A stretch of DNA of 64,000 bases from Eretmocerus hayati (lineage: Eukaryota; Arthropoda; Insecta; Hymenoptera; Aphelinidae), in contig CM056743.1 of NCBI GenBank assembly GCA_029851415.1, forward strand, positions 11,834,727-11,898,726. Reading direction: 5' to 3'. Below the pieces are notes generated by a model. The model saw only the letters and a list, made by a program, of their open reading frames with translations. It made no database searches and was not told the origin of the DNA. This document shows, piece after piece, positions 2,935 through 54,849 of the stretch; position 1 is the first letter of the stretch; the number at the start of each line of letters is the position of its first letter. The translations under genes were made by a program, and so were the position numbers.

Positions 2935-3010
2935 GAGCGTGTTCATATTGGCAGCAAATCGCCGCGATTTTAGCGATGTGAAATCGCGGCTCAGTCGCCG
3001 ATGTGAAAAC
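2935..3010 (+). repeat. Outer part of the left terminal inverted repeat of H
   Basis: These 76 bases match the reverse complement of 35723-35798 with a single substitution (CCGCG against CCACG). The sequence is itself rich in short inverted motifs built on GCGAT. It ends in GAAAAC (3005-3010), which is one copy of the 6-bp duplication flanking element X. The rest of this repeat resumes at 20998. Confidence 0.88.
3005..3010. repeat. Left copy of the 6-bp target-site duplication of X (GAAAAC)
   Basis: GAAAAC directly precedes the first base of X, and the identical hexamer directly follows its last base at 20992-20997. The undisturbed right end of H, read on the - strand, has a single GAAAAC at the same place (GATGTGAAAACACATCGC). 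Confidence 0.88.
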
Positions 3011-3481
3011 TACGGAAACGTGTAACCGCCCCGCCGATCCCGCAACCCGCATTTCGCACTCGCACAGCGCTGCGGCATGCGGCGTCGATTCGCACACCGC
3101 TGCGGCATGCGGGTTTTTGAATCTATACATAAATAAGCTACGGAGCGGCTCCCACAACCCGCCCTGGTCTCCGTCGGTTCAGCTACACTCCAGGGTATGA
3201 CTACAAGAGTGATCTCCTCTGAAATTCACCTCAGCATTAAGTAATGCATATGAAAATCGCGTGACGCGGCATGAGCAAGATGAGCAAGCAGCTGACGCAT
3301 GCGCAGAGTGCAGATGCAGACAGCGACGTCGTCTGCTTGCACAGCACAGCCACAGCTGCAGCTGTACACACGCAGTCGGCTTTCGCCAGCTTTCGCTGCC
3401 CAGAAACCTGGGTCAAGGTCGCGGACCGGATGCATCACCAAGTTCGGTTTCCAAGTTGACGTGATCGCCCAAGGTGTAGTG
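3011..3481 (+). repeat. Left terminal inverted repeat of X
   Basis: This repeat matches the reverse complement of 20537-20991. The outer 210-220 bases are nearly identical; farther in, the arms differ by substitutions and small indels but share long blocks such as ACCTGGGTCAAGGTCGCGGA. It is much richer in GC than its surroundings. It contains two copies of a GCTGCGGCATGCGG unit (about 3068-3115). Confidence 0.9.
3124..3137 (+). promoter_or_regulatory. TATA-like box inside the left repeat of X
   Basis: TATACATAAATAAG lies about 115 bases from the left tip and is conserved in the right repeat (20865-20878, - strand). In both arms it points inward. A transcript starting shortly downstream could feed the kinase gene: the kinase start codon sits one base after a good splice acceptor (TTCCAG at 7772-7777), which implies an upstream non-coding exon. 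This is inference; no transcript is visible. Confidence 0.4.
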
Positions 3482-3529
3482 AGTTTTAGGACGCTACAAT
3501 GTAATCGTGGAGCCGTGTGAGCTACTTAG

Positions 3530-4210
3530 TCCACGTAGTATCTGAGAAAAAATTGAATTTCGTAAAAAATTTTTAAAAAAATCATAAAATTTTCTTCGTT
3601 TTTTTATACACTTGGGAGGAAAGAATCGTTCGATACCTGGAAAAAGTGTGGTTTGATGCCACGGGTTATTTTTTTCAACACATAGCAAAAATTGTTGCTG
3701 TGTTAAAATCACGAGAAAAAAAATTTTCCCTTGCACCTGGTATCCTGACATGATTTTTCGAGACAAAATGACCGTTTTAACACGATCCCGTAGTCTGTTT
3801 TGGGCTGCCATGACAGGATTTTCGTCTAGATCAAGAAAACTTTTTTAAAAAGCAAGGTTTTTACGGCTAGATGGGATGGGTCATGGTTTTTACGGATGGC
3901 TGGATGGGTCACAGTACCGTGTTCAGAGGGTCATCTTGCATTGGAAGACCGTGTTTGAAAACCAACAACAAGGAGAAATTTTTCTTATCGTGATTTCAAC
4001 ACAGCAAAAATTATTGCAAAAACGGGTGTTAAAACAAATTTGTGGCATTGAACGACAGTTTTTACGGGTACCGGAAAAATTTTTTTCCCACAAAATACAC
4101 TTCAAAATGAAGAAAATGCGACCTCGAACGTTCAAATTGGTCTATCTTAGATGGTTCATGATTTTTCGAAAATTTGTTGCGAAATTATCCTTTTTTTCAG
4201 ATATACAAGG
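3530..4210. mobile_element. Foldback / non-autonomous inverted-repeat element
   Basis: The ends mirror each other (GTAGTATCTGAGAAAAAATT near 3535 and the complement of TTTTTTTCAGATATACA near 4190). Inner blocks do too: CAACACATAGCAAAAATTGTTGCTG and neighbours around 3670-3730 against CAACACAGCAAAAATTATTG around 3995-4020. Identity is moderate, so it is old. It begins about 50 bases inside the left repeat of X. Confidence 0.45.
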
Positions 4211-4249
4211 GAGACGAGTTATCGAATTTAGCATCCTAGGGTTCTGAAA

Positions 4250-7200
4250 TCATCGGGATAGATCCTGATCGTGTGTCAGCGGGCCTAAAAATGTAGGAAA
4301 ACAGAACTTGATATGCCCTTTGACCAATTGGTATTCCCTGGAACCTCCAGATTCGGGAATGAAGGAAAAACGTAAAAACGCTATTTTTGGAGATCTAGTC
4401 CTTTCAATTTGAAAAAAAATCCTCAGGTGTGGGTGCAAATCGGAGGTCGGTATCGGTTTCAGCGTCACAAAATACACAAGAAAATCATTGTACGGTCATG
4501 CATCATTACTGCCCCTAAATTTTGTTACACAGAGAAAAACAATCATTTTTCATAATAAAATCATTTCATTGTTACGAAAGGTGATCTTTGATTAGTGTAT
4601 TTCCATTTATAGATATGAAAGGAATCAAAATGTGGTATGATTCATTTTAATTGTCCTCAACATCATGATTCGATATTCCAAAATTATTGACACTAAAGAA
4701 GATCTTTAGTGTTTTTGCAAGCTACGCGATCTAGTCAGTTTTCTTAACCATGACTAAAAATTCAGACAAGCTATGATAACAACGATACATTGAAGGAAAA
4801 TTTGGGATGAAAAATATTCGGAGAGTTAACTGTTGACAAGCTTTCGCGTACTTTTTCGTTCATTCTTTTAATGAAAGCAATTCTTTTTGCACTTGTTTTC
4901 TGAGTTCACAAACTTTCAGATGAGGTCGTCCAACGTTCCCGAACTACAACTTTCCCAAATTCTTCCACCCCCCTTGAGCTGCCGCCCTAAGCTGTAGCTT
5001 CAATTAGCATCACTTTAGATAAATTATATTCTCAATTATTTTGGTACATCTAATTTTAAATGTTCCCTTTGTTCCTGAATGGTCCTCTAAGATCTTTAGA
5101 AATTAATGCTAAGGCAGATCCACATATTATATAACTCGACATAAAATCACTTCTTGTTCAGAAATAACTTAGTGAAATTCCCTTAAATTTTTCACAACTC
5201 GCTCACCTTGAAACTTATCGGATCACCCAATTCGACTGACTGGAAAACGATTGCCAACAGTACAAGCAAGGAACTGAATGAGTATGTTCAGGTAAGAAGT
5301 CGAGCTACGCGGAGAAGTGTATGTGGAAAAGTGTGAGCTGATGATGTGAGCCAACGACAGACGACAAATCTTCAGGCAAGCCGTAAAATCAGCCTGACCA
5401 GAGCAGACTCAACAGACCCCGCAAACCGGAGAGAATCAGATGATCAGACCTTATGATTGTGATGGTGGAGAAATGGAGAATCGGTGAGATTCAGAGCAGC
5501 AGACGAGCATTGACGAGCATCAGAGGGCGCAGACGCCAGACACCGCCATGATTTTGTAGAATTTCTTATCTCAACTGCTCAAGTGACTGTTCCCGCTCGT
5601 TTTGATATTTGGACTCGTCTTTCTGCTTAAATCTCAGCAAATCTCAGTTGCACTTGTGAAATTGTGACCTCGTCGCCATCGGCTTTCGACTCAGTTGGAT
5701 GAACATCTTGTGCAGCAGATTACAACAAAGTGTCGTATCCATTGTACGAATAATTACTCCAAGATCTTTTCCAGAGACTGCCTTGAACGCTGCTGTATTT
5801 GTTTGAATAGACCTGAATCCAAGAAGAGGTAAATCTTTTAGTTTTTACCAAATAAATACTACATTGTAGAAATAACGAGGGGCTAATCCAGATCCAACAC
5901 TGACATGGAATCAATATCATATGGTGGTAGGATAGACTATTTCCCACCAACTCTTGTTCATCATACCAAGGTTTACTTGCATTAGTATCCTTGAATACTA
6001 GCGTTTACATATTTATTGTTGCTAGAACATGACAAGATTTCGCTTCTTATGGTACTGACTGTAAAGTGATCTAGCAGCTTTCTACAAATTTTGCAAATGA
6101 AACATTCATCTACTTGTAGTCCTTTCAAGCTTGTCTTTAGTAGTAAATATCATCAACGCAAATTAACATTCCAAGATTGAGGAAGACTTTGATTTTGTAA
6201 ATACCATGATAATAATTTACTCTGATTCACAAAATATGTGGAGGAAAGTGTAAGACAATATAATGCATCTAAGCTTCTGCAAATATGCATGTGAATCTAT
6301 TAGGTCGTTGAAGTAGTACAAAAAGAAAGAATGTCGATTATTGCCTAACGTCTACTCTCTGCCAGGGTCCAACATGGTAATCACCTCATGCTCATGAGAA
6401 CCCATTCTCGTCAACAAATCATGGATGCTCCTTCCACAAAAGAACCTGAGTCTTTTCTGAGTGGTCGATGTTAGAAAAGCTCATGTATTCAGATTATGAA
6501 TAACAAGTCTTGCATCTAGAACCTTTTGATCAGGTGCAACTACAATTGTAGAGACAAAATCTCTTGTGTATCTTTATTTGCAAAATTAATATCCCATACT
6601 CATCTTTTAAATGAACATTCATATGATATGCCTAACCCAGCATGAAGTGGTTACTGAAAGTTGGAATTAGATACTCTACGTTGGAAAATTGTTCTAAGCA
6701 ATGACTGCGTCAATTACCATACATTTCATGTCAATAGTTGATTGAGCACAAAGGTAAACAGTAAATAGTTGAAAGGGTGGAACACTATAGCCTGCGCTAA
6801 TACATGCTGGATTATCCCATACGATCACAAACTGTGACTTCCTTATCTTCCAAATTACATTGCAACTTCGAGGTGCCTTAATTTTTTAGTCTATCACCCA
6901 ACCACATCATCTTCTTGGCACCAGCTAACCAGTAAGCCTGTTTTTGGATTGAGGATTTCTGTAACTAATTCAACTAAGCCTTCTTGATCTTTGACAGCGA
7001 TGACTCAAAATTACATGCTAGTATTTTCTAGATTACCTTAAATTACTCAATTTCACTTGAACATTCTTGAATATCTTCTGCTGTCTATCATTCGAGATGT
7101 ATTCTGATTTTACTCGATTGAAGGTTTGTCTAGATCAAATATAGCAAAGAAAGTATGCATTGAGTTTTTGTTTGATCGGTTCCCATTAGAACTTTGAACT

Positions 7201-7740
7201 GGGAATCCAAGCACTAACAGATATGACCATCTTATTCCATGAATAGAACAAAATATAAAGAGAGTGCAAGCATATTCATATGATACATACATACTTATTG
7301 AAAGGTGTGCCACCATTTTGACATCAACCTTAGTCTTGGCACATCATATCGAGTAGTTGATACTCTACAGATTGGGCTGTCTGATGGCTTCCAACAACAC
7401 GATATGGATCCAAATAGGTCTGCAAAGATATATTCCCATCCCAATCCTGGCAGTTAGTTAATATTCGTAATGAAGCGATTTGTGATAGTCAGTTTATCAT
7501 CGTTTTTTGACAGAAAAAATATAATCATACGGTGCAATATTTGAAAAATCAATTCTATCTTTTGGATTGACGTTGATTGATTGTAGATTTTTTCTGTACA
7601 TTTGGATGAGGGTACAAGAATGTTACAGGATCAAATTTCTCAAGAATTGAACAGTCAATAATTTAATGAGCTAGAATTCCAGACAAATTATAAACCATGC
7701 ATGGAAATAATTGAGGAACATTTTTGATGTAGTTATAGTT
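4250..7740. other. 3.5 kb without a recognisable gene, interior of X
   Basis: This AT-rich sequence has only short reading frames (none over about 80 codons) and no motif or repeat I can assign. It separates the left repeat of X from the kinase coding exons and may hold a 5' non-coding exon and intron of that gene. Confidence 0.4.
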
Positions 7741-7778
7741 GAATCATGATTGTTAATCATTGTTGTGTAAATTCCAGG

Positions 7779-10095
7779 ATGGCTGACGGCTCAGGCGAGA
7801 CGTTTAATGAGATGAATGTGGAATTCTACAGCGACACTGAGGTGGTATCACTTCCCATCTCAGATTTAACAATTACAAGAGAGAATTTGAGTGCATATTT
7901 CGAAGGTACTGTCGAGAGTATAAATTACACCAGTGACTCGGGACAGAATTGCGGTGTTCGTATTGACGGAGACGTATTCAAATTACGCCCTAATGTTTTG
8001 AAATATCAAGTTAAGCTTCGTGAATCAGGTGAGAATTAATTATACTGCTCATAGGCATACTGCTTTCAAATCATGTTCTGCAATCCATTGATTCTGAAAC
8101 ATCATCTATACTTACAATTCATGTGAAAACTCTCTTGCAGCGACCCCAGCACAGAGACGTACAACACTGAATCCCAAGAAGCTTAACTCCATAAAAGAAT
8201 TTAGACAAATATACTTGGGACAGGCTAAGGCGAAAGAATTAGAAAATCAATTGAAGAAAAGCTCCACAAAATCAAAGATTAAAAACCTCAAAGTACTACC
8301 TTCTCAATGTGGACAAGAATCGTCAGTACAAATCATGGCGACGAGTCAGAAAAGTAACCTCAAGAAACAGTCGAAAATGGGTGGCTTGGACCAAAAACGT
8401 TCAGATGGAGAGAAAATTCGCGTACTCAACTTTGGCTGGATGCACAGGACTAATGAAAGCAGCAAGTTTATAGTACAACCAGCCCCTGATGGGGGAACAA
8501 AATCTATCTCCTTCAACTGGGACAAAGATTACTCTATAGAAGAAGTAAAAACGGAAGCTATTAAAGCTTTTCTAACCAGCCAAACTAAAGCTTATTTCAA
8601 CAATGCAATAGTTGAACTTGGACCAAGTATAAAATCAATCGTAGAAAACTTTGACGAATACGGAGGTTTTAAAGGATTTGTTGCGGCGATGAACAAAAAG
8701 AACCACAGGTTCAAATTGTACGTCAAGACTTCATTCTTCGCAAACTATACGGATGCGGAAGTCAACATGATAATCTTCGACGAAGAAAGACAATTCAAGA
8801 TTCATGAGAAGGAAATAGAAGATGAAGACTCAACGTTGGAAATCCGCGGTATAGGCTCCCAAGAAAGTGAGACTAATAATAACCTCGTTCCAGATATTAT
8901 TTACTCAGAGATTTCGGGTGCTGTAACCCCTGAAAGATCTTTTGGAAACTCAATTTTTACGAATAACGTTCCTCAGTCCTACGTAAGTTCAGGGGTATTT
9001 GCGGATCTTCAGATTATGAAACCCATGGAAAATCTTTCCAGTTTACCAGACAATGACTTGAAAGCCGCAATACTCGATGCCCCTATTATTGACGTTGCTG
9101 ATGAAAGGTGTGATGCACCAACTGATGTGCAGAAAAAAGGAAACATCTGTAGCATTGAAAATTCTCCACCAACGAAGAAACGCAAAGTCTCACCTACCAA
9201 AATCTTCAAAGTCCCCGTAGCCCTTCCTAAAAGAGGGAAGATTGCAGATTTGTCTGACCTACAACCACGAGCAGTCCACGAATTCCAAAGATCTGATTTC
9301 GAACTTACAACTCTGCTTGGGTGTGGTACGTTTGGAGAGGTACGGAAGGGTTTATGGGATCACACGGACATTGCTGTCAAAATTCTGAAGGTTAATCAAA
9401 GCACGATCGCAGCAGTTAAGCGTGAAGTCAATCACTTAAATCAATTATCACATCCCAACCTTGTGGCACTATATGGAGTGTGCCTTGCGGGACCAAAATT
9501 CCATTTGATCATGGAATATGTCGATGGGGCCAACTTGGCATCAATATTGTTTGAGCCGGATGTTGGAAAAGACTACAATCTGAATCGTGATTTAATTGCA
9601 CACCAAGTGACTGTAGCCTTGGCGTATTTACATAAACTTCTCTGTGTTCATCGAGATATCAAGCCTGGTAATATACTTGTCACAAAGACAGGTGACAAGG
9701 CTAAGCTGTGTGACTTAGGATTGGCGAAGATGAAATCGACTTTGACGAAGGATCCATATAATACGAGCAGAGGAAAAGAAGTTCGACAGATTGGAACTCC
9801 AGCCTATATGGCGCCCGAAGTCTTTTTGAAACAGAAAGAAGCAGACGAGTCGTCAGACGTATGGTCCTTAGGCTGTACGATTGTAGAACTCTATACTGAA
9901 GATCATGTCTGGGATCTGGATGTAGAAGATTCAGATCACGAGTTGGAGCACAATATATTTGGAAAAAATCGTGTGCCAGACCAGAGCTGCGTTCCCGACT
10001 TTCTTCAAGATAGTTTGAAGAAATGCTTCACATATTTCCCTCCTGAACGAATTACAGCTATAGAACTGTTGAAATGCTTCAGCTTCTTGATAAAG
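7779..10095 (+). CDS. TDP43_N-like module plus protein kinase, gene carried by X
   Basis: Two coding exons are visible: 7779-8028 and 8141-10095, joined through a 113-bp GT-AG intron in phase 1. The first exon (about 83 residues) resembles the TDP-43 N-terminal domain (PISDLT...FEGTVESINY...GVRIDGDVFKLRP). The middle part is uncharacterised (around residues 170-270, with GWMHRTNESSKF and DGGTKSISF) and has a basic SV40-like signal TKKRKV near residue 426, so a nuclear location is likely. The kinase domain spans about residues 468-735: glycine loop GCGTFGEV, lysine in IAVKIL, HRDIKPGN, DLG instead of DFG, and MAPE. It looks active and closest to TKL/MAP3K-like kinases. A donor AAG|GTGAGA at 10095 suggests further exons; unspliced, the frame ends at 10191 inside a MITE. 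I chose ATG 7779 because it follows a splice acceptor. The host or transposon substrate is unknown. Confidence 0.8.
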
Positions 10096-10140
10096 GTGAG
10101 ATCATTTTGGGCAATACTTCTTACAATCCATGAACTGATA

Positions 10141-11045
10141 CTTTACCGGTCAAAATTCCAAGCTCACCCAAAATGCTTTCTTCTAATTTAGTGAGCTGTG
10201 CCACTCGGCTCTACCGAACTCTTAAGCACTTCATCTTGGCCCATCTCAGAGATCTTTTTACGGACTTTGAGATGACATTATTCATTTATTCGAATCTTGC
10301 CAATTTTAGTTCGAAAAAGAGTGAATTTCGCCGATTTTTGGGAAAATCTTTTGGATCGTGCAAGTTTGAGTCACATAAATGTTTTGCCACAAGACTTGCA
10401 AGACCCAAAAGTACGTTTAGAGCATCAAAATCCGTCCTCAAATGTCTCTTCATGCCACTCCTAACCCGAGCTATGATATTTTCTCTGAGGAAAGATTTTC
10501 CGTAAAAACTAGCACTCAATTTCAAGATAGACAGAGAAATGCGCTTTATGGGGATAATTATGTTTGCATCCAGTATCTCTCTTCTTCATTATGATTGCAT
10601 AAACGAGAAACCTGTGGAATAAGCCTTAAAACCTGAATTTTCTCGTAATCCTCACACAAGGGTGTTAGTTTTTGCGAAAAAAACTCTCCTCTAAGGTAAT
10701 ATCATAGCTCGGACTAGGAGTACATTGAAGGGAGAATTCAAAACGCATTTTGAAGCTCTAGGTTTATCCTTTCAGGCATCTTACATTCCATACTAAATAA
10801 TTTATGTGCCTCAAACTTGCAGCAGCGAGGAAATTCTCTCAAAAATTTTTGAAATTTACACTTTCTCAAGCTAAGGTAGGCAAGATCCGAATTCGTATGA
10901 ATAACAATGAAAAATGTCAAATCAAACTGCGCGGAAAAACTTTTGAAACTAGCCCAGATAAAGTCCTCTAGGGCTAAGTAGAGCCAAGTAATGCAGCTCA
11001 TTGAAACAAAATTTTTTGGTAACCTTAAACTTTTGACCAGCAGTG
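10141..11045. mobile_element. Tc1/mariner-like non-autonomous element, copy 1
   Basis: The left tip TTTACCGGTCAAAATT and right tip AACTTTTGACCAGCAGTG are inverted and flanked by TA (10139-10140 and 11046-11047). Arms of about 300 bases mirror each other imperfectly; for example, the peptides read from the two arms align as LFTDFEMTLFI and SFSAQFDLTFFI. The element lies 45 bases after the last kinase splice donor and supplies an artificial stop if that donor is not used. Confidence 0.7.
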
Positions 11046-11049
11046 TATG

Positions 11050-14000
11050 TATTTTGAAATTATCGACTGTGGAAGATAACGATATAGGAAACTGATCCAG
11101 AAATCGCCGAAAACTCCATTGTTTCCTCGCTATTAGTATTTGAGAAGTCAGTAAACAGAGCTGTACATAAAGAAACCTTTCGAGTTCTCGTGGATGAGCT
11201 CGTACTGTTTTTCTTCCTTGAAGTTGATACCGTTGATTCTGAGTGTTGCGAATTCTACTTGGGTGCATTAAATCTCTCTCACTCTCAATTTTTTTCTGTC
11301 TGCCAACAGTGTTGATTTGATGTGTTGGACCCCATGAGGCTCTGCGACCTGATGGATACCCATTCTTATCTCTCTTCGATGGATGAGGGCTTTCACAAGT
11401 GCTGAAGAGAAATGAATCTTTAATCGTATCTAAATGACGGCTCTACTAGTATCAAGATACTAGATATAGTACAAACTCTGGTGCTTGCATTTTGATAATT
11501 TGAGAATCCAAAAGTAGTCATGTATAAGACATCGCCAATGTTAGGAGTTTGTTCGAATACCTGTGATTGTGTGATGAGAATTATTAGGAGAACCACGAAG
11601 TTGATGTATAGTATGAAATTCAAGGCCCAGTATTCAAAGGCCTCCACATTAGAGACTAATTCATGCCTCAAATGTTTTTGAGTCGAGTCTTGATTCATGT
11701 TTGACTTTTACATCGAGACTGTAATGGTAGAACAATTACTTTACACATTCAGAAAAATTAATTTTAGGGAAAAAATTTGCACAAGATGAGGAAATTTTTT
11801 CAGATCATCTCGTTGCAAATGAAAACTTTCCACATTGATCCAATCCTTTGAATGAAAATTGTCAACGCTTTAGTTCGTGTCGTACTGGTTGAAACATATT
11901 GATAAGTTTGAATTTCGAGTTTCATGTAGAATTTCGAACTATTATCATAGTAGTTTCTAACAGTTTATGTCGCAATGGGCGCTAGGCCACCTTTTTCTGA
12001 CATTTAGATATTGTTATGACCTTTGTTCCGGTACATCCGAATGACGTTCTGTTTCAATTCTTCTCATCGCTTTCTTCCCATAATCTAGATCAGAACAATT
12101 GTGCTACATTTCGAAAGACTCAGAAGTCGTCAAAGTTTAGCTTCTGTTTCAAGGATCTGCATTTATTTAGTATTTATTTATTCATTTATTCATTTAAAGT
12201 ATTGAAGAATTAAATATAAAAAAATTAGACTTCCAAATGTAGATGATGTTTGAAATCGATTACATAAGAGCACATTGATCACGCTTTGATGAGACGGTGT
12301 TAATCGATCATATCAACATTTTATTGATGCATTCGTATTGTATCAGTATGAATAACCAAGTTCATTTTTAATGCAATGTTCTATAGAAATTACGCGGATA
12401 AAACTTACCTTGGCCATAGACGCAAATGAAAAGGGCGACATTTTGCAAAATTTGTGGTTCTGAAAAGATTTTCTATTCTTAGTTAGGCGAAGATGGTTAT
12501 GTCTCAGTTATTCTGGTACAGCAACAATACTTGCATTTTGCTCGCCATACTTAACACGAGACATGGAAAATCATGTCCCCTTTGATATTCCAAGAGAATG
12601 AGTTCTCGTGTTTCTAATCGAAATGACTCATCAAGAGGATTTTTCATGAAGTTCGATTTTTCTAACCATCAAGAAATGGTCAGTGAAGCATAGGTAGATT
12701 GCTACGCGGAGTATACTGGAAGTTACTCGATACAGGTAATCAAATTACCTTGGATAAGAGTAAGTTTCTCGTCTACCGCACCTTTACTATAATTTTTTCA
12801 TTGTCGTTGTAATAAAATGCTGAATGATCAATAAAAATATTTTATGCAATTTTCCGATAATTGAGTGGTTACAAAATCGCATAAAATAGCATTCGTACCT
12901 CGATCATGAAGTTCCCTGCTTCCGAGCGATTATTTCGACCCTCGCCCGCAGATCGGGCCGGAAACCAATCGCTCAGAAGTAAGCTACAATGTTTTCTCAC
13001 GTACTTCAGGGAATTCCGAAGTTTTTCCAAGTACTAATACAAAATAGAACGAGTCAAACTGTATTTTGATACAGTATCGCAAAGGCGAACCATGCTTGTG
13101 AGGCACAGATCTCATTCTTCGACAATGGATCGACATTTCTCCAGGTCATTGCTCCAACATAATTCCAAATCTCTTCACTCATCTCAGCTTATTTTTAATG
13201 TGACAACGCGCACTTTGCCAAATAAAATGAAGAATATGAAGGCATATAAAGATTTGTTACAGTAATGCCCTCGAGAAATGTCAATACCTTTTTGAGTAAT
13301 GAGATCAATGTTTCACCAAAATGGAATGGCTCAGTGGCACTATTGTATGAGAATTCAAACGGACTCGTTTCATTTGATAGTACCTACTTGGAAGGAACTT
13401 CTAAATGCCCTAAGGTACGCCAAGGAAAGTCAAGATACGCCGGAGTTGGACGCTTAAACCTCAATTACACCAGAGTTGCGTTTTCAAAGAACGAGATGTT
13501 GATGGCTTATCTAAGTTCTATTAGACCAAATTTCAGCTTCGCGTAGCTGGTCTCTAAGTCGTTGTGATAGTCTTGAACAGTCTTGAAATTGAGCTGACAC
13601 GCGTGAAAGAATAATGCAACGGGTGAGATTTAGGAGCACGTTCAGATAGGGCCCAAAGGTACAAAGACATGAGAAAGAATGGGAAAATCTTGAATTTGAT
13701 ATTTGTAGGAGATGGCTCTGGCGATAATTTTGATTTTTGTTGGGGAAAGTTTCATTCGTATACTTGGAGTGAATGAAGGAAGATTCCAAGTAAAAGCACT
13801 CATGGTTCTAAGTCATCTCTAACCAACCGTGCTTCATAATTCTCGATTTGCGTTACATTCAAGAGCGAATGAATATTAAAAGGAGAAAAAAAGTAAACTA
13901 GAGTTTGATCATTTTATTTTTATTAATTTGTGAATTATCGGATAGTCAAATATGTACAGCATTTTCAAGTCGATGAACTGACGGCCCTACCGTAATGATC

Positions 14001-14820
14001 AATAATCAGAAACCACACGCGATCATGGTAAGTTAATTCGAAAAATTTTTTACAATTCATTACTTCACAATTTACATTTTATATGTTACTTCATCTGTTA
14101 TGCTATTGCATTTATTTGTTATACCTTTATTTTTTATACAATTGTAACAATTTATATACTACTCGAGACGGAGTAGGAGACCATCGCAATTGTACAGAAG
14201 AAGTATATATCCTCTATCAGCTCTTTTCAATCAATCAAAACATAAAAATGTCGGTAAAGCTGTCGCGTTCAGCTCTTTCTGAGCTTGGATTTGATCTCCA
14301 AATGATATCTGGAATATAGCACCTCTTCAAAATCCGAAGGGTTCCTCGTCTTAGAACAAAACATTACTCAATATTCTGAACACCGTGACAAAGACTTGAT
14401 CAGCTCAAGGGAAGTATTCCTCTAAACCGTTCACACATACTGCCCAATATAGTGAATACGTTTATTTTATCGTTTTTTACAATAATTAGTTATGACTGTT
14501 TGTGGACGCAGGAAAAATCTATAGACACTTGCATTAGTCCTAGTTCATACAAGAAACGATTTAGACTTGAGATAAAAGACAAATACCTGATTGCAACTGA
14601 GAAAAAGGATGTAAAACCAATCAATCTTCCAAATCATTTTTTATACTATTTTCATTCGAGTGATATGATCTGAGTATCACGAATGCTCTATCGATTCTGC
14701 CATCTTTCATACCATTTTCATTCGAGTAATACAGTCTGAGTATCAGAAGTACTCTATCCAATGCTCAGAGCTTGCGGCAAGAAAGGAGTTGAGTGCATGT
14801 TGTCACTCTCAGTTCAACAT
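11050..14820. other. 3.8 kb between elements, no assignable gene
   Basis: Only weak open frames are present (for example a 93-codon frame at 13265-13546, + strand) without recognised motifs. A small hairpin lies near 12930-13010 (GAGCGATT against AATCGCTC). AT-rich simple sequence occurs near 12165-12195. A downstream exon of the kinase gene could be hidden here. Confidence 0.35.
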
Positions 14821-14821
14821 A

Positions 14822-15111
14822 CACTACCGGTTAAAACTTTGTGAACAGCCGAAGACGAAAAGGGAAATTTAGAGAATTCGGTATCTGCGACCTCGTTGGT
14901 CCAGAACGACTTGAGCTTATCTCATTTTGTACATTTTTTCAAGCACTTTGAAGACTAAGGAAAAACCCTCAAATAGCTTTCAAAATGCTTCGAAAAAGCT
15001 ACGAATCGAGCTAAGCTTAAAGCGTTTTGGACCAACGAGGTTGCAGAAATCGAATTTTCAAATTTAGACTTTTCAATTTTAGGCGGGTAGAATCTTTTGA
15101 CCGGTAATGTG
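14822..15111. mobile_element. Tc1/mariner-like MITE, copy 2 (about 290 bp)
   Basis: The left tip CACTACCGGTTAAAAC follows a TA; the right end reads CTTTTGACCGGTAATGTG. Subterminal blocks mirror each other well: ACCTCGTTGGTCCAGAACG (near 14890) and CGTTTTGGACCAACGAGGT (near 15024). No protein is encoded. It lies just 3' of the integrase gene of X. Confidence 0.65.
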
Positions 15112-15308
15112 TCTGCATATCAGACAACGCGGATATAGACCGTACATTCTGCACCCTTTATACAAATTTTGAATTCGTTGTTTTTTGTGCATGACTTACA
15201 CGTAGATTGTTGCGAAATACTGACTATTCTCGAGCAATGCAATGCTGCCTCTCATGGTTGTAGACCGAAAAAATCAGTCATTGCTCTGAACGTTGTTTTG
15301 GCGGAGAA

Positions 15309-18300
15309 TCACAGAGAGTCACCATTGACGCCATCCTCGGAGTCACCCGCAGAGTTAGTATTCGAGTCGTCATCGAGATCTTCCAAAGAATCGACCATTT
15401 CAATGACGGTTCTGAATAAGGTATAAGCTTCATCAATGGATGTAGGAACTGTAGAATTCGGCAGAAGTAGTTTGATGAAGGTCTCGATGTCCTCGTCGTA
15501 GAGTCTAGGCTCAATTGTTTGTGAGGCAATGAGCGCATCGATACCCGGAAGATGAACATCTTTTCCACAGTTTCTTGCTCCGTATTTCTCGGGGCAATGG
15601 TATATAATATCGGGTATACCACATGGAACTTTAAGGTCGTGTTGCTGGCGGATTCTGTGACTGTTCCATTCTGAAGTTGATCGGTCGATATCAGACCTCA
15701 GCAAGGGCCCGAAACAATATCTCAGCACTTCTATGTGAAGTGGGTTCAATCGATCCAACTCTCTTCTGGCCTCCATATTCTTGAATAAAGTGATGTAAAA
15801 TCCAGCAGTGTGGTTGATAAGCTGCCTCCAATACTTTTCAATTCTTTCATTAGCTGTGCTTGGGCCTCTTATGAAGCTGCGCGTGTTGGCATTTTCGTCA
15901 TCGTGTTCAGAGCGTAAAGCGATCTGAAGCAACTCAATTTTGACGTTCTCAGTACCATCGTCACACCGTACCATACACGGTACACAGCCCTCTTCCTTGA
16001 CAGCGTTCAAATAATGCCAAGCAATAACTTCAGGTTTATTGTTTGTTGTACCGACTGCCACCCATATAACTTTCCTGGAGAATCCATCGACGCAACCCGT
16101 TATGGCAAATCCAAAATACTTGAGCTTATCGAATCCATCGATGTGCCATAGAAAATTTGGACCCGGTACCCAGTATATCCTCCTTTTCAGTTTGTATCTT
16201 GATCTCTCTTCTATACCTTCAGGGTCGATTATTCTCATTAACTCCAAGACGGTCTTTTGCTTAACATCCAAATGATACTTATCCCTGAGTCGCTGCCACA
16301 TGAGTTTGTGCCCAAGACTAATTCCGGAACCCATCATCTCCATAAGTATGGCTTCAATAATCTTGTCGAGATCTGATTCAATAATGTTTTTTCTCTTGAG
16401 ATTCGTATATCTATAAATTTTCTGTAACGATCTCACAGATACTTTGATATTGTACTTTTGAAGCAACAATTGTGAGATCTCTTTATAGGTATACCTGCCA
16501 TGAAATAAGTCTCTTATAAGCTCCGTCACATCGATTTCATCACCTGTTGAGGCAAAAAAATTGATTAAGTACTCAAATGCCTAAACCACAAAACTTACTG
16601 ATCTTCGATCAAGATTTCGTAAGGGGATTGCGATCGTTTGAGAAATATTTTTTGTTTTTCTTTTCATTATTCAAATTTTAGCGAGCGGAGCTTGGACCAA
16701 ATTTTTTGCGATCAAAGAGCACGTGGGAGCCCAACGTTATCTCGATAAAAAATTTGAGAAGAGGGTACAAAGAATTCTAGATATAATTTGGGTAAATATA
16801 CATTTCGATTGTGTATGTACAGCTATGACAAATCAGTGCGTGGGGAATATCCAAGACGAGTTCCGGTGGGAAGCTCGGGGCGAAACAGCAACATTCAATC
16901 TCGTAGAATATACATCCTTTCTTCACGAAAATCGATCAATTATGCTAGGCTTACACTTTAACGACTTATGAAAATTGTCTGAACTCAATATGGAAGGACA
17001 TTTTTGTCTAAGACCAAAACCAATATTGCTGTAATTTCACTCGCTATAAGTCAAATCTCACTCTAGTATAGGTAATTATGCGTTCCCTCCTAACTCAAGT
17101 CGAAAGACTCGAATAGACTATCGGGGCTAGATTTTCACTTACGAATCACGGTTCACGCTGAAACTCTGGAAACGGTTATCTTCTGACAGCAAGAGACGAT
17201 GAAATTATAGACCCTATTGCTTTACTCTATCCTTAGAGATTAATTACTTTATACTGGGAAGTCATTTTCTCTTCAAGGGATTTACATGAAAACCTAATAG
17301 ACTTACTTTCCACCATGATTCTCAAGAACGCTTTTGATGTTACCATTTGATCATGACTAAATCTGCACCATTTGGAATGAGAATACGCAACTTAACGACT
17401 AGGAATGTGCATGTTCTGGGGTGTTTACACTTTAGGTGCACAATTGAGTGAAGGGCCGCGCCGTGCAAGCAAAATTTTTTTCCCATTTTCCTCAAAAAAC
17501 CCTCGATTTAGGGTAAACAAATAGAAGACGCACACGTGTTATCATCGAACTTGAATGTCTCAACTCGTCTTTTAGCTCAAATCGTGAAGGAATTCGTGAA
17601 TACTTGGAACAAAAATGTATGTATATGATAGATTCGGATGTACCAGACGCTTAGTGTTCCTCGCTTCCCTGCAATAATCTAATAATTTGGGTTAAACATT
17701 GAGTTGTCATGAATGAGTCGGACAATAACAGTAACTAGATAACTCATCTCTTTGTACCGTTAGATTTTCCACACAAGTAGTAAATGGAACTTTACGGATG
17801 TGCTGCACGGCTACCGCATGCCTTTAATAATTCTTGAGACGATCCCAGCTTCCCCGTATTTTTGAGATATTGATATGATAAAGGTTCGAAATGTTGATTT
17901 TGTCCCCTGTAGGCAACCGAACTTCGACTCTTAGATTCACTGCCACGCATATGGGCGGATCCACGAAAATGTCCGTTCATTTCTTCTATTCCTTTGTGAA
18001 AAATTCCGAAGAAACTGGTTTAGATCCAAAAGTTGCTTCAAGGTATGCAATATTTCTGTCAGAATCTTAGCAAACGCATAGAAAAACTAGGCAAAGTAAA
18101 GTAACCTTTTCTCGCGGACGTTTTCGTGGATTTGCCCCTATGTTCAGTGAAAAATCTGTATATGATAGCTATGCACTTTGGATTTTGTCACTTCAAATGA
18201 CATAATCCACAGTGCGCATAGTCCACCATATGCGGAGTGAAATTAATTACTAAGCTCGCGCATGACCATCCGATATTTTGAAGATAGATTTGCACTCAAA

Positions 18301-19485
18301 CTGCTTACTCAACACTAATCAGCTCGACAAAATCCCCAGTCGACTACGAGGCCTTTTAAATTAATAGGGTTGTCTCCCAAAAATCCAAATACACCTATGC
18401 ATGGATTATAATCTATGATTCGCAGCCAAGCGCACCTAGACGTGTTTTCAGATTGGCGTACAAAAATTTTGGTCCATTCGGTCCCCACATAGAGCTCTTC
18501 CCTAGCACGTTAAATCGCGTCGTACATTCACTTGAAGTATTTGGTCGCATTAGACCAAATTTATGTGGAAAAGAGTTCTAACATTAGTAGCCGAGCTGTG
18601 CGAATATTTTTGAAGCAATATGTGAATCTTTTCCCTCTCTGCGACTCCTTCAATTTGACATATCTTTGGCTGGCTTCAGTTGTGAGACATGTATTTGGAC
18701 CCAAACAAGTGGAATTCAATCGCAATCAGCCACCGAAACTCGTCTGGAGCTGCAAAACTTTTTTACCCGAATCACCATAGACAAGAGCAAAGAAAGTATT
18801 TCGTTATAACATCTCATATTTGTTAATATCCTACAACTCTGAGCACAGATGTACAAAGGTATGACTTGACTTGTTCTGTTTGACATATGGCTGGGGACCG
18901 TAAAAGTTGACTTGAATTTTCCATCTCCTCATTTTACTGCTAGTGAAAATCAATACTCTCAGTAATTCACAAACAATGGTTAACGAGCAATGGGATAGTA
19001 TTGATGGCTGCAAAGGGTCACATGATTGCCTTTGCTTTTGATAAGTTAAGAGTATGAAACCTAAGTCTTGTTAAGATAACGGAATTCAAGCAGTCTCCAT
19101 TGTAAGAGCTTAATATTTAGGAAAGCGAGCAGAGGCGAAATTGGAATGGAGCTCGATTGCAAGTCATGCAAGTCAAGTAGTCCTGGGGACGCAAAAAGTA
19201 GGAAAGCATCTTTTCTCTATCATTGAACGAATGACTTTTGTACAGATTAATGTTACCTGCTGTGTCTCCATGAATGACTTGGAATGCCTGAATGTTTGGA
19301 GGTAGCATAAATTTTCTGTCAACTGATTGAATAGTCTGTGTCTGTCCATTTTCGAAGTATTCTAGTTCTTTCACAGAAGGGAAATATTGGTTCAACGTCT
19401 CCAGACTAATAGTATGCTCTTCTAGCTCAAAAGATATAGTAGGATGACTGTGACTTGTAAAGTCAATCAGATGAACTGCATTCAT
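15309..19485 (-). CDS. TDP43_N-like module plus rve-type integrase/transposase of X
   Basis: Coding exons are 19485-19257 (76 codons plus one base) and 16543-15309. The donor GCAG|GTAACA and acceptor TCAACAG|GTGATG leave matching phases, giving one open protein of about 487 residues. The first exon resembles the TDP-43 N-terminal fold (ISLETLNQYFPSVKEL...KFMLPPNIQAFQV) and parallels the kinase first exon, including intron phase and position. The second exon has a helix-turn-helix-like start (YTYKEISQLLLQKY), then an integrase core with candidate acidic residues in WHIDGFDKLK (about D212), RCDDGTEN (about D271) and NERIEKYW (about E312), and an acidic tail. This family occurs as transposases in animals; as part of X it is the obvious candidate for moving the element. 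No stop or frameshift is present. The 2.7-kb intron holds nothing I recognise. Confidence 0.8.
16549..19250. other. Long intron of the integrase gene
   Basis: 2.7 kb between the two coding exons. Short open frames on both strands have no recognised motifs. The intron is AT-rich and shows no obvious nested element. Confidence 0.5.
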
Positions 19486-19489
19486 TTTG

Positions 19490-20530
19490 AGTATGATCTA
19501 GGCCCTATCGATAAAAGACACTTTAGGATTTTGGAGGGGATATTCAACATCATCAAAGTGAATACTGCACAATTACCTTCCCCTCGACTCGACTGAGGTA
19601 GCTTCTCTAGAGGATGAAAATCACAATCAACACTATCAATTCATCTATCACAGCAGGTTTGTGACTCATAATAGCATCATTTCAAGATATTGAGTGAGAG
19701 CTTCATGAATTGCGAACCGAGTTGAGTATTTGTATTGTGGATGAGGCTGGGATGCTGCTCATCTTTCAAGCTTGTCAGCATAGCTGTCGTTCAAGGTTTG
19801 CAAGCCTCCAAACCAGCCTTGTTCGATACTTGGCCCAAATTATGTCACAAGAGAAAGGAGTCTAGAGGCAACATGCTATCACACCTGGCTTCTGGAAATA
19901 CAATAATGGAGTATTTCATCTTTGCTTATGTACAATATTTTGAACATGCGGGAGAAGCAACTCGACTCACCTCATATAGCTCTGGCCTGATGCACTGGTA
20001 TTGTAATGCACATTTGGCGTACTATCACATCAAGCCAACCATTTGAATATTTACACTGCACAAAAGTTCAAGGTGAGTTTTTGGACAGACTTGAAACATC
20101 CTGTGGTATGGAGGTTTCATCGAGTACTACTATAATGCACAATCAATCTCTTCAAAATAGCGATTCCTCAGTCAATGGAACTGAAATTAAATTGAGTTCT
20201 AAATAATTGTCACGTGCCTAAGAGAAGCTGCGATTTCGAGTCATGTAAATGTCTGTAAAATGCGGAAAAATCGTAGAGTGCTCAAAGCAAATAGAGTGGA
20301 GGGTGTCCTAACCTCAATCTCTGACGTCGTGCACTCGGCTTATAGGTAACGAACGATGGCATCTTGGGCGATCTGGCACTAGATACATCTTTACCAACGT
20401 AGTCGCGCACCCACGCCGAGAACATGACTAGCCACCCGGGTTTCAAACAAACACAAGCTCGCTGTCGACGTCTCATGGCTATACAAGCCATGGAAAAGTG
20501 GGGTCATTACGCCAGCGGGTACATCACTGG
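19490..20530. other. Upstream region of the integrase gene up to the right repeat of X
   Basis: No gene is recognised. A short frame at 19735-20046 (+ strand) has no known motif. The region presumably holds the promoter and any 5' exon of the integrase gene, which reads away from the right repeat. Confidence 0.35.
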
Positions 20531-20536
20531 GGGTAC

Positions 20537-20991
20537 ACTACACCTTGGGCGATCACGTCGACTTGGAAACTGAACTTGGTGATGCATCCGGTCCGCGACC
20601 TTGACCCAGGTTCCTGGGCAGCGAAAGCTGTCAAAAGCCGACTGCGTGTGTACAGCTGCAGCTGACCAGTAGCTGTGCTGTGCAAGCAGACGACGTTGTT
20701 GTCTCAAAGCCAACGACTTGTCTGCAGATCAGGGCTGCTGCAGATGCACTCTGCACATGCAGTAATTCTGAGGTGGATTTCAGAGGAGATCACTCTTGTA
20801 GTCATACCCTGGAGTGTAGCTGAACCGACGGAGACCAGGGCGGGTTGTGGGAGCCGCTCCGTAGCTTATTTATGTATAGATTCAAAAACCCGCATGCCGC
20901 AGCGCTGTGCGAATCGACGCCGCATGCCGCAGCGCTGTGCGAGTGCGAAATGCGGGTTGCGGGATCGGCGGGGCGGTTACACGTTTCCGTA
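20537..20991 (-). repeat. Right terminal inverted repeat of X
   Basis: This is the inverted match of 3011-3481. The two tips are identical for more than 60 bases, and a C/G difference in the second GCATGCGG unit is among the first substitutions. The last base (20991) is directly followed by GAAAAC. Confidence 0.9.
20865..20878 (-). promoter_or_regulatory. TATA-like box inside the right repeat of X
   Basis: Reading the - strand gives TATACATAAATAAG, the same as in the left repeat and also pointing into X. It sits about 1.4 kb upstream of the integrase start codon. Confidence 0.38.
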
Positions 20992-20997
20992 GAAAAC
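20992..20997. repeat. Right copy of the 6-bp target-site duplication of X (GAAAAC)
   Basis: Identical to 3005-3010. It is followed by ACATCGCACATCGC, the continuation of the terminal repeat of H. Confidence 0.88.
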
Positions 20998-21112
20998 ACA
21001 TCGCACATCGCACATCGCGCATCGCGCATCGCAACTCGCACATCGCACATCGCAACTCGCAACTCGCAAATCTCACATCACGCAGCTGTCCGCGCGGACT
21101 GAGAAATTAATC
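20998..21112 (+). repeat. Inner part of the left terminal repeat of H, with 7-bp tandem array
   Basis: This stretch continues the repeat broken by X. It consists mainly of tandem 7-base units of the type ACATCGC / AACTCGC / GCATCGC. It then runs into CAGCTGTCCGCGCGGACTG, a strong palindrome, and ends near TGAGAAATTAATC. With 2935-3010 it totals 191 bases against 156 in the right repeat. The 35-base difference equals five 7-base units. Confidence 0.85.
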
Positions 21113-21148
21113 TATTTTCCCACTTAATTCAAAAATCACAATTGGATT

Positions 21149-21264
21149 GGTGAAGGTCATCATTTAGAAACTTGAATGGAAGAAATTGACCCCTTTTTGA
21201 TATCAATTTGTTTCTATTTTGATATCAAAATCTTCTATTCAAGTTTCTAAATTATGATCTTCAC
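21149..21264. repeat. Short inverted repeat / hairpin
   Basis: Arms of 34 bases (21149-21182 and 21231-21264) mirror each other with about three mismatches around TTCAAGTTTCTAAA. The loop contains TTGATATCAA twice. It may be a small MITE or a structural part of the H end. Confidence 0.55.
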
Positions 21265-22025
21265 GCCACGAACCAAAATGTGAAATAAAAGTTGACCATA
21301 TATATGACGGTATATTGATGTCGGTGAACAAGAAACCCGCGTCTTTCGCATCTCATCAAGCAAATTTTCCACGCACACGAAGCAATCTGTCGACGCGAAA
21401 AAGCCACCCGTGCTCATCATTCCCCGCTAGTTTCGACAGCGTGATCAGACGTCTTTTAATCTTGGCGACTGTTAATACTGGCGGGGGATGCATGCGATGG
21501 GTGCAGTCTCGTCGCGGCGACTCACTGCCTTTTGTCCAATTTGGAGAAAATACGATAGGTACAGGCAGATTACGCGGGACTCGTGTTTTCCCTGATTTTA
21601 CCCGTCGTCTGTTCGACAGCGTGATTGGTCATCAATAAATCACAGCGATTATAAAAAGACGGGGAAAACAGGAATCCCGCGCCATACGTCGGTACCTAGC
21701 CTATTCATCTCGGACTCAGACAAAGGGCAGTCCGTCTCCGCGACGAGTTTACCCAAGTTTACCAGATATTTTCGTGGATCACCAGTAGATTGAATACAAT
21801 AATTGGACCATATACAGCTACGAGGCTTGTCGCGACCACGGTCAAAAAGGCTAGCCCTGCGCAACTAGTGCAAATTTTCCCAAGACCCAGACAGTAGTTT
21901 GTCTGGAGACAGATCACCGTCTGTCTGAGGTCCGGGAAACCGGCGGACATCTGCTGATACTTACCATTTGCAATTAAAGATATGGATAGGCAGGGGTAGG
22001 GGGTAAAGGGCCCGCTCCTAAATTT

Positions 22026-22035
22026 TGTATAAATC
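22026..22035 (+). promoter_or_regulatory. TATA-like box upstream of the MADF gene
   Basis: TGTATAAATC lies about 140 bases before the ATG at 22167 and is followed about 25-30 bases later by a plausible start region. It is a candidate core promoter for the MADF gene of H. Confidence 0.4.
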
Positions 22036-22166
22036 GAGCGCAAAACTGACTTGCAAACCAGTTTTGTGCTTGACACCACCTACGTCACATCGCGAGTTTT
22101 TGCCGTGTGCCTTTGCTTACATCGCTTGTGTATTTTGTTCTTCGCGAGCGTTACGTGTTTAGTGTT

Positions 22167-25100
22167 ATGAGTGAAAAAATGTCAGCGAGAAAAAAGTGTA
22201 ACACCACCCCCGCTGTCAAGGCGTCTGCTGTCCGGCACCCATCGCGGACCAAGGATGGACTTGGGTGATCGTGAGCAGTGTCCAACTCGATAAGACGGCC
22301 CTGATCTCCGCTGTATACAAGCGGAAGCCATTGTGGGAGAAGAGAGATGATAACTACCCACAGTCTCACCACGCACTCAGTCCCCTTTGGGATGGAGTGC
22401 TCGAAGAGATGAATATAAAAATCACTCCTCAAAGCAGTAAGTGTTTCCAAATTGTTCACGGTTGTGGTGGCATTATAGGTGGCACATATGTGCATCCAAA
22501 CGTACGTATGTGGGTGATAATGAGACAACTTAGGTATTTCGACTTTTCGAGGCCAAAAAAGGGAAGGGTCGGAATTTGAACCAAAAATTGACTAGTTGAA
22601 ATATATCAGCAATCTAACTGCTCATAAGTGTTTTCCAATCTATCTGACATCCAAAAATTATTCCCAGACTGGCATTTGACGTTAGTCAATCTACGTGAAA
22701 GATATGAGCGACTTTCGATATATTTTAGCCACGGTAAGAACATTTTGACATAAAAAGTGATCTCAAAGGCGTAAATCGAAACAGATTGTTTTCTCTGAAT
22801 ACACGGCCAACTTTTACGGTGAGGTTTTACGGTGATGTGTTTAAAACTGCCGCGTCAATGTACGAGTGAGATCGCCGCGCGTCTGCTCGCATCGTCCGCA
22901 CCAGCAAATCAACGCGTCCGCGCGCGTAATATTCATGACGTCTGGCGTGATACAGACCCTATATGCTCGTGTTATAAGTATGATTGAAATTTGAATCCGC
23001 AAAGTCGAAAAAACGTACTTACGCCGAATCTTTTCAAAAAGAAAAAGTGTAGTTGTGCATAGTGACGTTGTTGAATGATCTCTTCCGGCTATCGTAGAGT
23101 TTTTCGAGTCATTCTCCGATCCTTCTTCAAGTTGATATTAAAGGCGATAACCACTCATACTCTCAGACCATACTTATCTCCATTCAAAAATTATTCACAC
23201 GTATATGCTAGTAGAGCTATCTGCAGTATCTTCTTTGAGTATTGGTCAATTCTATACTACATAATTGATTGCGAATCCACCAGTAAGGAATTCTCTGATA
23301 TGAGTATGTTCCCAGTGTTCCCCATTATGTATGCGAATCCATTCAACATAATTACACGCAAGTGATTCCTGTGCTCAGAATCATTCTGTTCGGTTGTATA
23401 TCTAAACAGAAGAGTCGGAGCACTAGTCTTTTCAAAACACAATAGAAGGTGCGTAGTGTGTAATGTACGCTCCACCAACAAGTGCGCAAAATCACTGGTG
23501 ATGTATTTTTTTTGTATGTGATCGAGCATGATAAGTATCCTGTGGGTCAACTACAGAGATTTGAAATGAACATTTGCAGTCATTAACACAAATTTTAATA
23601 TTCTTCAAATGAATAATCATCACCACCCAATCTCTTGATTTCATTATTTTTTTTGACCTACTATTTCATGGAAAGCATACCCAACCCTGATCTTCACACA
23701 GTCTCAGCATTCTAATCATTACCATGGCATGGCACATGCATGTGCCTCTTTTCCATGATAACCTTTTGTGCATACGATGTTTAACTTCAATCAAAATATT
23801 GATTTAAAAAGTACGGGTTCTGCAGCAAAATTTGTCGTTCATCCAATATTGAACTATGAGTCGACCATAAAGCAGCCAATCTTTATTGTAGACAATTATT
23901 CTACTAAACGCCCGACATTCAAATTTTCAATATAACCAATTCTTTTCAACTTCAAGCGATGAGATATTCTATCTAAAAAATTATCATTGCCCCTTAGTGA
24001 ACTTTTTGTCCGATCAATTATCGGCATCCAAAACTTTTAAATCTCATACAATGTTTAACTTTTTCAGAATCGATTGTTCGAGGGCGCTGGACAAGCCTCA
24101 AGAACGGGTTCAACACAGCTTGGTCAAAAAGGCCCAAATTAGCGTCTGGGTCAGAAGCTAAGCAATGGGTTTCCAGGAACCCAGATTACAAGGCGATGAT
24201 GTTCTTGAAGACCAACCGTCAAAACCGAAAGTCCCTGAGCAACCACAAGCCTAGTGTCCCTTTGCATTCTGAGAACTTTTATGACAGTGACCACTTTGAT
24301 GATGAAGATTCGGAGGGTAGATAAGGTCAAGAAGAAGAAGAGCAGCACAGAGCTCTTGATGAGTACGACGACGACGACGAAGATGACGACGACGATGACG
24401 GCGATGTCGACGACGGTGGCGATGGTGAATCTCGGATCTACTCCGAGGTATCCGAAGCTGATACCGATGAAGATGTACCCCTCATCAAAGAAGAACCAAC
24501 CGATGCTCAGCAACCGATGCGCAGCAAAAAGCAAGAAGGCTCCAAAACGGAAGGGATCCGCTTGTGTTGAGCCAGCCCACAAGGAGTGGAAGGCTCAGCA
24601 ACGCATTAGGCCTCCAACCAACAGCCAACTCTTACAAGTTCTTGTTGCTACTGAAGAAAAGAAAGTAGCTCTAGCAGAGAGAGTCATCGATGAAAAAGTG
24701 AAGAACGAACTTCGACCTTATAAGAATAACGTCGACGATGAGTGGATGGACTTCTTTCACGAGCTGATTCCACAACTTCAAACTTTCGACACTCGAAAGC
24801 GTACTGCATGCAAAAAAGCTTTTCGAGACCTCGTCGCAGAAATACAGACAAGTGAGTGATCATTCCACATACTTACCCATATCAACTAAGGAAACATTCC
24901 TTTTCAAATTATTGCTGTGTCTTAGATGCTCAAATAACTCATTCCTCACATCAATCGAAACATCAATAATGAATCACGGATTGTATCTCAGATTATAGAT
25001 GACAACTGTCTGAGAAAAATTGAGAATGTTCTTCTTCAAATCTCGTATTTGTAATCCAGAACCGTGTCTTGCACTTTCGATAATAAATTATGGCGTAACA

Positions 25101-25451
25101 CTCGAAACTATAGGATTTCTTCTCGGATTCTTTCTACATTTTTCTATCTTTTCCGAGGCTCATTAAAAACCAAAAGTTCGGTTCTTCCGTTGTTTCCTAG
25201 CACGAGAAGATAATTTTCAGCCTGGACTTCGGCCTGCTTTTGCCGCTATCTAGAGCGCTTAAGTGCAGCAACGTCTACTGCCTAGATATGGTGCCACGTC
25301 GTTTTGTGGGTTGATATATTATTTCAATACATGATCTACTCTAATTTCAGATAAATCCTGGAATGCCGTATCGTCCGTAGGTGATGGATCGAACCATATC
25401 GATTTGGCAACTGATGAAGCCATTTCTAATTCAGCCAGTCCCCAGTTATAG
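22167..25451 (+). pseudogene. MADF/BESS-type DNA-binding protein gene of H (decayed)
   Basis: Three exons are visible: about 22167-22436, 24068-24851 and 25351-25451. Both junctions keep the reading phase. The MADF domain is split by intron 1: DKTALISAVYKRKPLWEK and SPLWDGVLEEM before it, GRWTSLKNGFNTAW after it. A serine/lysine stretch and an Asp/Glu-rich GAC-repeat segment follow, then a BESS-like end (EWMDFFHELIPQLQTF). The gene is damaged. ATG 22167 opens a different frame (MSEKMSARKKC...) from the MADF segment, so a frameshift lies near 22250. TAA at 24322 interrupts exon 2, and a +1 shift is needed near 24500-24560. MADF proteins bind DNA; Harbinger transposons carry a Myb-class partner that helps the transposase bind DNA and enter the nucleus, which is the likely ancestral role here. 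Confidence 0.72.
22500..22840 (-). repeat. Dispersed repeat, copy 2, in intron 1 of the MADF gene
   Basis: Reverse-complement match to 2360-2690 with perhaps 70-80 percent identity. It lies in the first intron of the MADF gene, about 65 bases after the splice donor. Confidence 0.6.
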
Positions 25452-25534
25452 CCAATGAGACGCAGATCTCGATCGACAATTCCGGGCTCACCAGTACATC
25501 ATGATGGTCGCGTAAGTCGTATCGAACCATCACC

Positions 25535-28307: not shown

Positions 28308-28676
28308 TACTGCATGATTGAATAAGTACATTGCAATAATGTCGACGAACGCTTCTTGGAACATTGTCTGAGTCCGAGCTATTGAGAATGAGTATTTGAA
28401 TTATATCTAGTAATGAGAAAGACCTCTTGAGAATATAAGCTCTGTCGATCAAAAACTCCGGTCAGGTGAAGAGATTCTTGGTATTTCAATATCAAAACCG
28501 TTGAGGCTGAGGGTTATTGAATCTATAAGAACTCTACTGTTTAGTCAAATGCACCTTCAACGTTCTAGATATGATAATTCATGCATCACAATGTTACGAA
28601 AAAGTATTTCAAATACCAACTCCGAAATAGAAATTAAATTATACCCACGAAAAAAAATTAATTATCACATTCGCAG

Positions 28677-29726: not shown

Positions 29727-29729
29727 ACA

Positions 29730-31195: not shown

Positions 31196-31201
31196 AAATC
31201 C

Positions 31202-32671: not shown

Positions 32672-32699
32672 TTTGCAAGTCTCGAGATATTATCTGTAA

Positions 32700-35300: not shown

Positions 35301-35307
35301 AAAGGCT

Positions 35308-35491
35308 CTCGAAGTTCTCCTCCCCCAAATTGTTGGCACGTGCCAATGTGAGAGGTATAAGCAAGACCCCCTCGGAGACCCCCACAATCGCGGCCACGGA
35401 TTAACTGACCGCGAGACTCGTCGCGGCGGGGTCTTTTTCGGGTTTTCTCACATTGGCACGAGCCAACAATTTGGGGGAGGAGAACTTCGAG
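35308..35491. mobile_element. 184-bp MITE with 46-bp terminal inverted repeats
   Basis: The arms 35308-35353 and 35446-35491 are inverted copies with one mismatch (tip CTCGAAGTTCTCCTCCCCCA). The near-identity implies recent origin. The inner part is GC-rich. No clear target duplication. Confidence 0.75.
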
Positions 35492-35642
35492 AAATTTTGC
35501 TTTCATACTTCATGCATCTCTTTCCTCTGTACTCAGAAGGATACGGTTCGGCAAAATGCGCAGTTTGAAGGCAGACCTGGCAAAACAGGAGCCAAGATCA
35601 GCATTCAACTGTCATCAAACAACTGAAATATTTAATCCGATT

Positions 35643-54826: not shown

Positions 54827-54849
54827 AAAATCATCTAGGAAAACACCAC

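Follow-up and report, generated by a model that had tools for sequence, protein, structure and literature searches.

IS3EU DNA transposons have TA..TA termini and usually make 6-bp target-site duplications (PMC10045372; this and the other articles are cited here from their available sections), and those of rust fungi carry the tips TAYGG..CCRTA (PMC12730594). The superfamily gains genes, as seen in the TET+ IS3EU elements of fungi, mostly rusts, where an alpha-kinase gene lies opposite the transposase with a TET/JBP gene between them (PMC12730594), and in Kapitonov's Intons (PMC3520738) and Styx of Zymoseptoria (PMC10853768), both multi-gene and IS3EU-derived. Here we describe X, a transposon of the parasitoid wasp Eretmocerus hayati lying in a stretch of 64,000 nucleotides (C3:11834727-11898726, hereafter the window; the searched assembly comprises 692,130,109 bases). 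X resembles the TET+ elements in holding kinase and transposase genes in opposite orientations, but its kinase is a conventional Pkinase and its scanned open reading frames (ORFs) have no TET match; Intons and Styx differ from it in being fungal and in their gene sets. New in X is the pair itself, a transposase and a complete conventional protein kinase whose genes lie tail to tail and are intact in both full-length copies.

The annotated proteins map onto X with GT-AG introns, the kinase on the plus and the transposase on the minus strand (Table 1). The X transposase is identical to P0001 (QAD02_001831, Eretmocerus hayati). It matches rva_4 (5e-39), with HTH_21 and rve below their cut-offs; a search of solved structures with the transposase gave no match, and its AlphaFold model (mean predicted local distance difference test, pLDDT, 88.7) matches the structures of Mu, TnsB, IstA and retroviral integrase. 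The kinase has the motifs GCGTFG, AVK, HRD, DLG and APE, which we take to be marks of an active enzyme. Both frames are also open in the second full-length copy, whose kinase is P0076: between the two copies none of the 1,464 nucleotides of transposase coding sequence differ, against 12 of 2,277 for the kinase (10 synonymous) and 116 of 14,240 for the rest. X looks like an autonomous IS3EU-type DNA transposon. Its four other ORFs of at least 120 residues (one at 10738-11442) had no match in a Pfam scan.

Kinase residues ~174-305 form a conserved middle region (FGWMH..GGTK..LYVKTSF), recurrent at several IS3EU-type kinase loci; in P0076 no Pfam family exceeds its cut-off there. Two kinase protein searches, which required exact 5-residue words and so do not cover other wasps reliably, returned only the two E. 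hayati kinases; one of them scored 7,995 candidates, those with the most words in common. Two imperfect palindromes also lie within X, at 10192-11000 (inside the second kinase intron) and at 14821-15110.

By sequence profile and predicted model, the same N-terminal domain opens both transposase and kinase, and the transposase-type domain is present at eight of the nine kinase places inspected. Among solved structures, the N-terminal domain of TDP-43, which self-polymerises, comes nearest to its predicted models, and these have the TDP-43_N fold. PF18694 scored 24.3 bits in P0007 (the best), 17.6 in P0012 and 16.3 in P0001, all below the gathering cut-off of 27.1, and we therefore call the domain TDP-43_N-like; the same scan found no match in five other transposases and two kinases. 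When solved structures were searched with the N-terminal profile, seven of the 11 rows were weak TDP-43 matches (E 0.19-1.3), and the top row was an antibody chain (E 0.016), with no single stretch significant by itself. In TDP-43 the domain forms head-to-tail chains, which a single phosphomimic at S48 breaks (PMC5830921); the transposon domains are likened to it by sequence and model, at a score below the cut-off.

Selection was estimated between X and a cousin on C2 (C2:120238212-120256607, 18,396 bp). Kinase exon 2 has a synonymous divergence (dS) of 0.97 and a nonsynonymous divergence (dN) of 0.201, and transposase exon 2 has 0.84 and 0.054, respectively (NG86). These estimates indicate purifying selection on both genes and, because dS is 0.97 versus 0.84, the two have diverged over a similar time, both constrained. 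Within the kinase, dN/dS is 0.107/0.983 for the kinase domain alone and 0.275/0.962 for the linker (NG86).

Across this genome, IS3EU transposases from many lineages have such a kinase as a neighbour. A search for the transposase yielded 78 matches, merged into 55 loci (same-strand matches within 6 kb), and the X-kinase search at least 61 matches in at least 54 merged loci, with 59 of 218 candidates scored. Among the kinase loci listed, 29 of 54 have a transposase locus no more than 15 kb away. Kinase and transposase are on opposite strands in 26 of the 29, and all 26 are convergent. Random placement gave a mean of 0.115 and a maximum of 2 (2,000 trials). In a control search with the Pkinase family (at least 136 matches in at least 121 merged loci; 123 of 551 candidates scored), a transposase lay within 15 kb of 26 of the 49 listed loci that the X kinase also detects versus 3 of the 72 others (Fisher p 4.9e-10); two of these three are convergent and may be further IS3EU kinases. 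Seen from the transposase side, a kinase lies no more than 20 kb away at 25 of the best 30 loci, a set that contains X and copy 2; it is convergent at 21 of the 25 and not at 4. None was found within that distance at the other five.

The three elements whose borders around the pair are proven are X, the second full-length copy and the C2 cousin. The loci are partly non-independent: C15 and C3:21.67, which with C3:11.37 belong to a more distant family, do not differ over 4,158 bp and may be one locus counted twice, and C1:101.17/C2:20.23, C3:11.37/C3:21.68 and C1:180.22/C1:204.65 are 97-99.9% alike. A FastTree tree was built for 36 transposases, 28 of which are from E. hayati; the 17 loci labelled as paired are spread over about a dozen lineages in several clades, and the Leptopilina transposase groups with four of them (support 1.0); C2:60.01, C4:101.95 and C3:90.50, labelled unpaired in the tree, proved to have convergent kinases in the later locus survey. 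Transposase and kinase bit scores have a rank correlation of 0.83 (p 7e-5) over the 16 loci with a transposase above 300 bits, a cut chosen post hoc, and of 0.41 (p 0.047) over all 24 loci listed.

DNA transposons often capture genes, and a captured passenger with no role in transposition would agree with the five transposase loci where no kinase was found. We nevertheless hold this to be very unlikely for the X kinase, given the mostly convergent arrangement across divergent families, the purifying selection, the frame complete in two copies and the transposase-type domain at nearly all kinase places inspected. Recurrent pairing in related elements suggests that the kinase helps to run or control the jump.

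By analogy with TDP-43, we lean towards the view that kinase and transposase co-assemble through the shared domain and that the kinase regulates transposition of X. The TACGG..CCGTA tips would be the substrate of the DDE transposase, whose insertions would be staggered by 6 bp; borders and duplications are observed, and the enzymology is modelled on IS3/IS481-type and integrase-type enzymes. The shared domain could then build homo- and hetero-oligomers of kinase and transposase, head to tail like the TDP-43 domain, and the kinase might phosphorylate the transposase or its own domain, a switch of assembly, timing or copy number. If the transposon domains act like that of TDP-43, the kinase could enter the transposase assembly and, by phosphorylating it, either dissolve or arm it.

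Alternatively, the kinase may target host proteins (silencing, DNA repair, cell cycle) in favour of transposition or survival of the element, with the shared domain only localising it. The conserved kinase domain beside a fast-evolving linker speaks for such a role, as do the TET dioxygenases of fungal IS3EU, which have been interpreted as anti-silencing genes (PMC12730594). An N-terminal domain common to kinase and transposase points instead to direct partnership, and we consider a host target rather unlikely. Extended to the wasp IS3EU at large, the co-assembly model would describe a two-component machine: a dedicated kinase and a transposase join via a polymerising domain, phosphorylation switches the assembly on and off, and the kinase is as old as the wasp IS3EU lineages. 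We put this extension forward tentatively, at somewhat less than an even chance.

The original prediction, made from the letters of the window, held that X, with identical inverted tips, terminal repeats of about 0.46 kb and perfect GAAAAC flanks, had inserted precisely in the terminus of a Harbinger element. All of this was confirmed; the shared domain and the genome-wide pairing go beyond it. The 18-base tips are identical (TACGGAAACGTGTAACCG / CGGTTACACGTTTCCGTA), and the terminal inverted repeats align in three ungapped arms: 241 nt at 97% (including 12 nt of flank), 129 nt at 96% and 36 nt at 92%. With indels, the right end matches the left at 87% over 471 nt. Removal of X plus one hexamer yields GATGTGAAAACACATCGC, which occurs once in the window (35716-35733, minus strand; 0 of 100 shuffles), within the other Harbinger terminus. 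There the joined flanks align without gaps at the junction and at 79% overall, the 35 gap positions lying beyond the junction, within tandem repeats of the Harbinger end. In the genome search with the joined flanks (40 of 111 candidates scored), the top of 41 rows was C4:87129788-87129947, at 98% across all 160 bases. The host has the DDE_Tnp_4 transposase and the 3-bp duplication, TAA, of PIF/Harbinger elements.

That X is a real transposon, and that its insertion in a genuine Harbinger element is precise, is supported by this paralogous empty site and by other copies with their own 6-bp duplications. The junctions of X are known here from assembled sequence and could in principle be assembly joins; in view of those duplications (12 of 15 two-ended copies), of a full-length sibling at another locus and of an assembly built from HiFi and Hi-C data, with HiFi at 693-fold (PMC10482854), the probability of this is close to negligible.

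Table 1 Features of X and of its Harbinger host (positions in the window).
Feature	Position	Strand	Details
Transposon X, IS3EU-like	3011..20991		17,981 bp; tips TACGG..CCGTA
Left target-site duplication	3005..3010		GAAAAC
Right target-site duplication	20992..20997		GAAAAC
Left terminal inverted repeat	3011..3481	+	
Right terminal inverted repeat	20536..20991	-	
Kinase exon 1	7779..8028	+	TDP-43_N-like N-terminal domain
Kinase exon 2	8141..10095	+	Linker, conserved middle region, protein kinase domain (Pkinase 1.3e-48)
Kinase exon 3, stop codon	12483..12554	+	758-residue frame complete
Transposase exon 1	19257..19485	-	TDP-43_N-like N-terminal domain
Transposase exon 2, stop codon	15309..16543	-	HTH_21-like region; rva_4/rve DDE core D212, D271, E312
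Host Harbinger element	2935..35798		~14.9 kb after subtraction of X and a single hexamer; TAA on both sides
Harbinger transposase ORF	31205..31834	-	DDE_Tnp_4 match 7e-20
Paralogous empty site in other Harbinger terminus	35640..35799	-	Alignment of joined flanks

Searching the genome with the left terminal inverted repeat of X yielded 35 matches, spread over 15 places. Both ends are present at 14 of these; L025 has one end and was excluded from the duplication count. The C2 cousin, found through its transposase, is the fifteenth two-ended copy. The two-ended copies are X, the second full-length copy (C3:43961999-43979997, 99.0-99.2% identical to X along its whole length), the C2 cousin and 12 others. 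Perfect duplications flank 12 of them: GAAAAC (X), CAGTAC (C3:43.96), CGTATG (L003), CTTACC (L004), CATGAG (L005), CTTCTC (L006/L021), CGTACG (L007), GCAGCA (L008), AGAAAG (L015), CTTTCG (L023/L024), GCAAAC (L026, outside an extra 10 bp tip) and CATACG (C2:120.24). Those without are L009 (CACATC/CATCTC), L013/L022 and L029/L030. Ten of the 12 duplicated hexamers have G or C at both ends (base composition uncorrected), possibly a target preference of the element.

The only deviating borders seen are a tandem extra outer tip of 10 or 16 bp in a few derivative copies (L026, L008, L017/L029, L030); L026 (C4:26588900-26594000) has it at both ends, with the hexamer duplication outside. L003, L004, L005 and L007 are an internally deleted, non-autonomous subfamily of ~1.07-1.11 kb, made of X 1-546, X 629-1048 and 104-140 bases of the opposite end. 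The 12.5-kb copy at C4:42807853-42820390 (L029, L030) has only its ends in common with X and no clear gene. The C2 cousin looks very young, as its 1,053-bp terminal inverted repeats have no mismatch.

X fits the known superfamily IS3EU (IS3EU/GingerRoot), since its TACGG..CCGTA tips, its 6-bp duplications and its IS3/IS481-like DDE core agree with the description of that group, as does the lack of an upstream HHCC motif (no cysteines occur in residues 73 to 210 of P0001). It differs by its 18 kb, its eukaryotic-type protein kinase and the TDP-43_N-like front of its transposase. Relatives in fish, Nasonia, Trichogramma and Leptopilina have the transposase core in common; the fish relatives P0057 and P0061 and three others have CxxC..CxxC N-termini in place of the TDP-43_N-like domain. 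Polinton/Maverick elements and proviruses measure 15-20 kb and have 6-bp duplications, and X could be taken for one by its size and duplication length. They are contradicted by its rva_4 transposase with an HTH_21-like region, by its TA..TA termini and by the seven ORFs of at least 120 residues inside X, none of which matches DNA polymerase B (an intron-split gene could escape), so that either identity is extremely improbable. IS481EU was rejected as well: it has TNT..AYA or TGT..ACA tips and duplications of ~4, 15 or 25 bp in the descriptions available.

Elsewhere in the window, two near-identical 406-residue ORFs lie at 53696-56049, inverted relative to each other; the plus-strand one scores over the cut-off for GIY-YIG and slightly under it for RVT_1, and is Penelope-like.

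The statement that no insect element with the size and gene pair of X had been described stands in part. The element belongs to a known superfamily, and a kinase opposite the transposase has been published for fungal IS3EU, an alpha-kinase in that case (PMC12730594); the available sections of that article make no mention of a shared N-terminal domain. Our search of the open literature, with most subscription papers and Repbase outside its scope, met neither an animal IS3EU with a conventional kinase nor a domain shared by transposase and kinase. No paper in one open library joined the TDP-43 N-terminal domain with a transposase, and of the two genome papers on E. hayati, one makes no mention of IS3EU in its main text.

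The fungal alpha-kinase elements hint that kinases may be recurrent partners of this superfamily, and with X a TDP-43-type domain appears in a context other than TDP-43 itself. Because selection maintains the kinase next to the transposase and the two have a domain in common, phosphorylation control of transposition becomes testable in one defined protein pair. If true, X would be a transposon controlling itself by phosphorylation.
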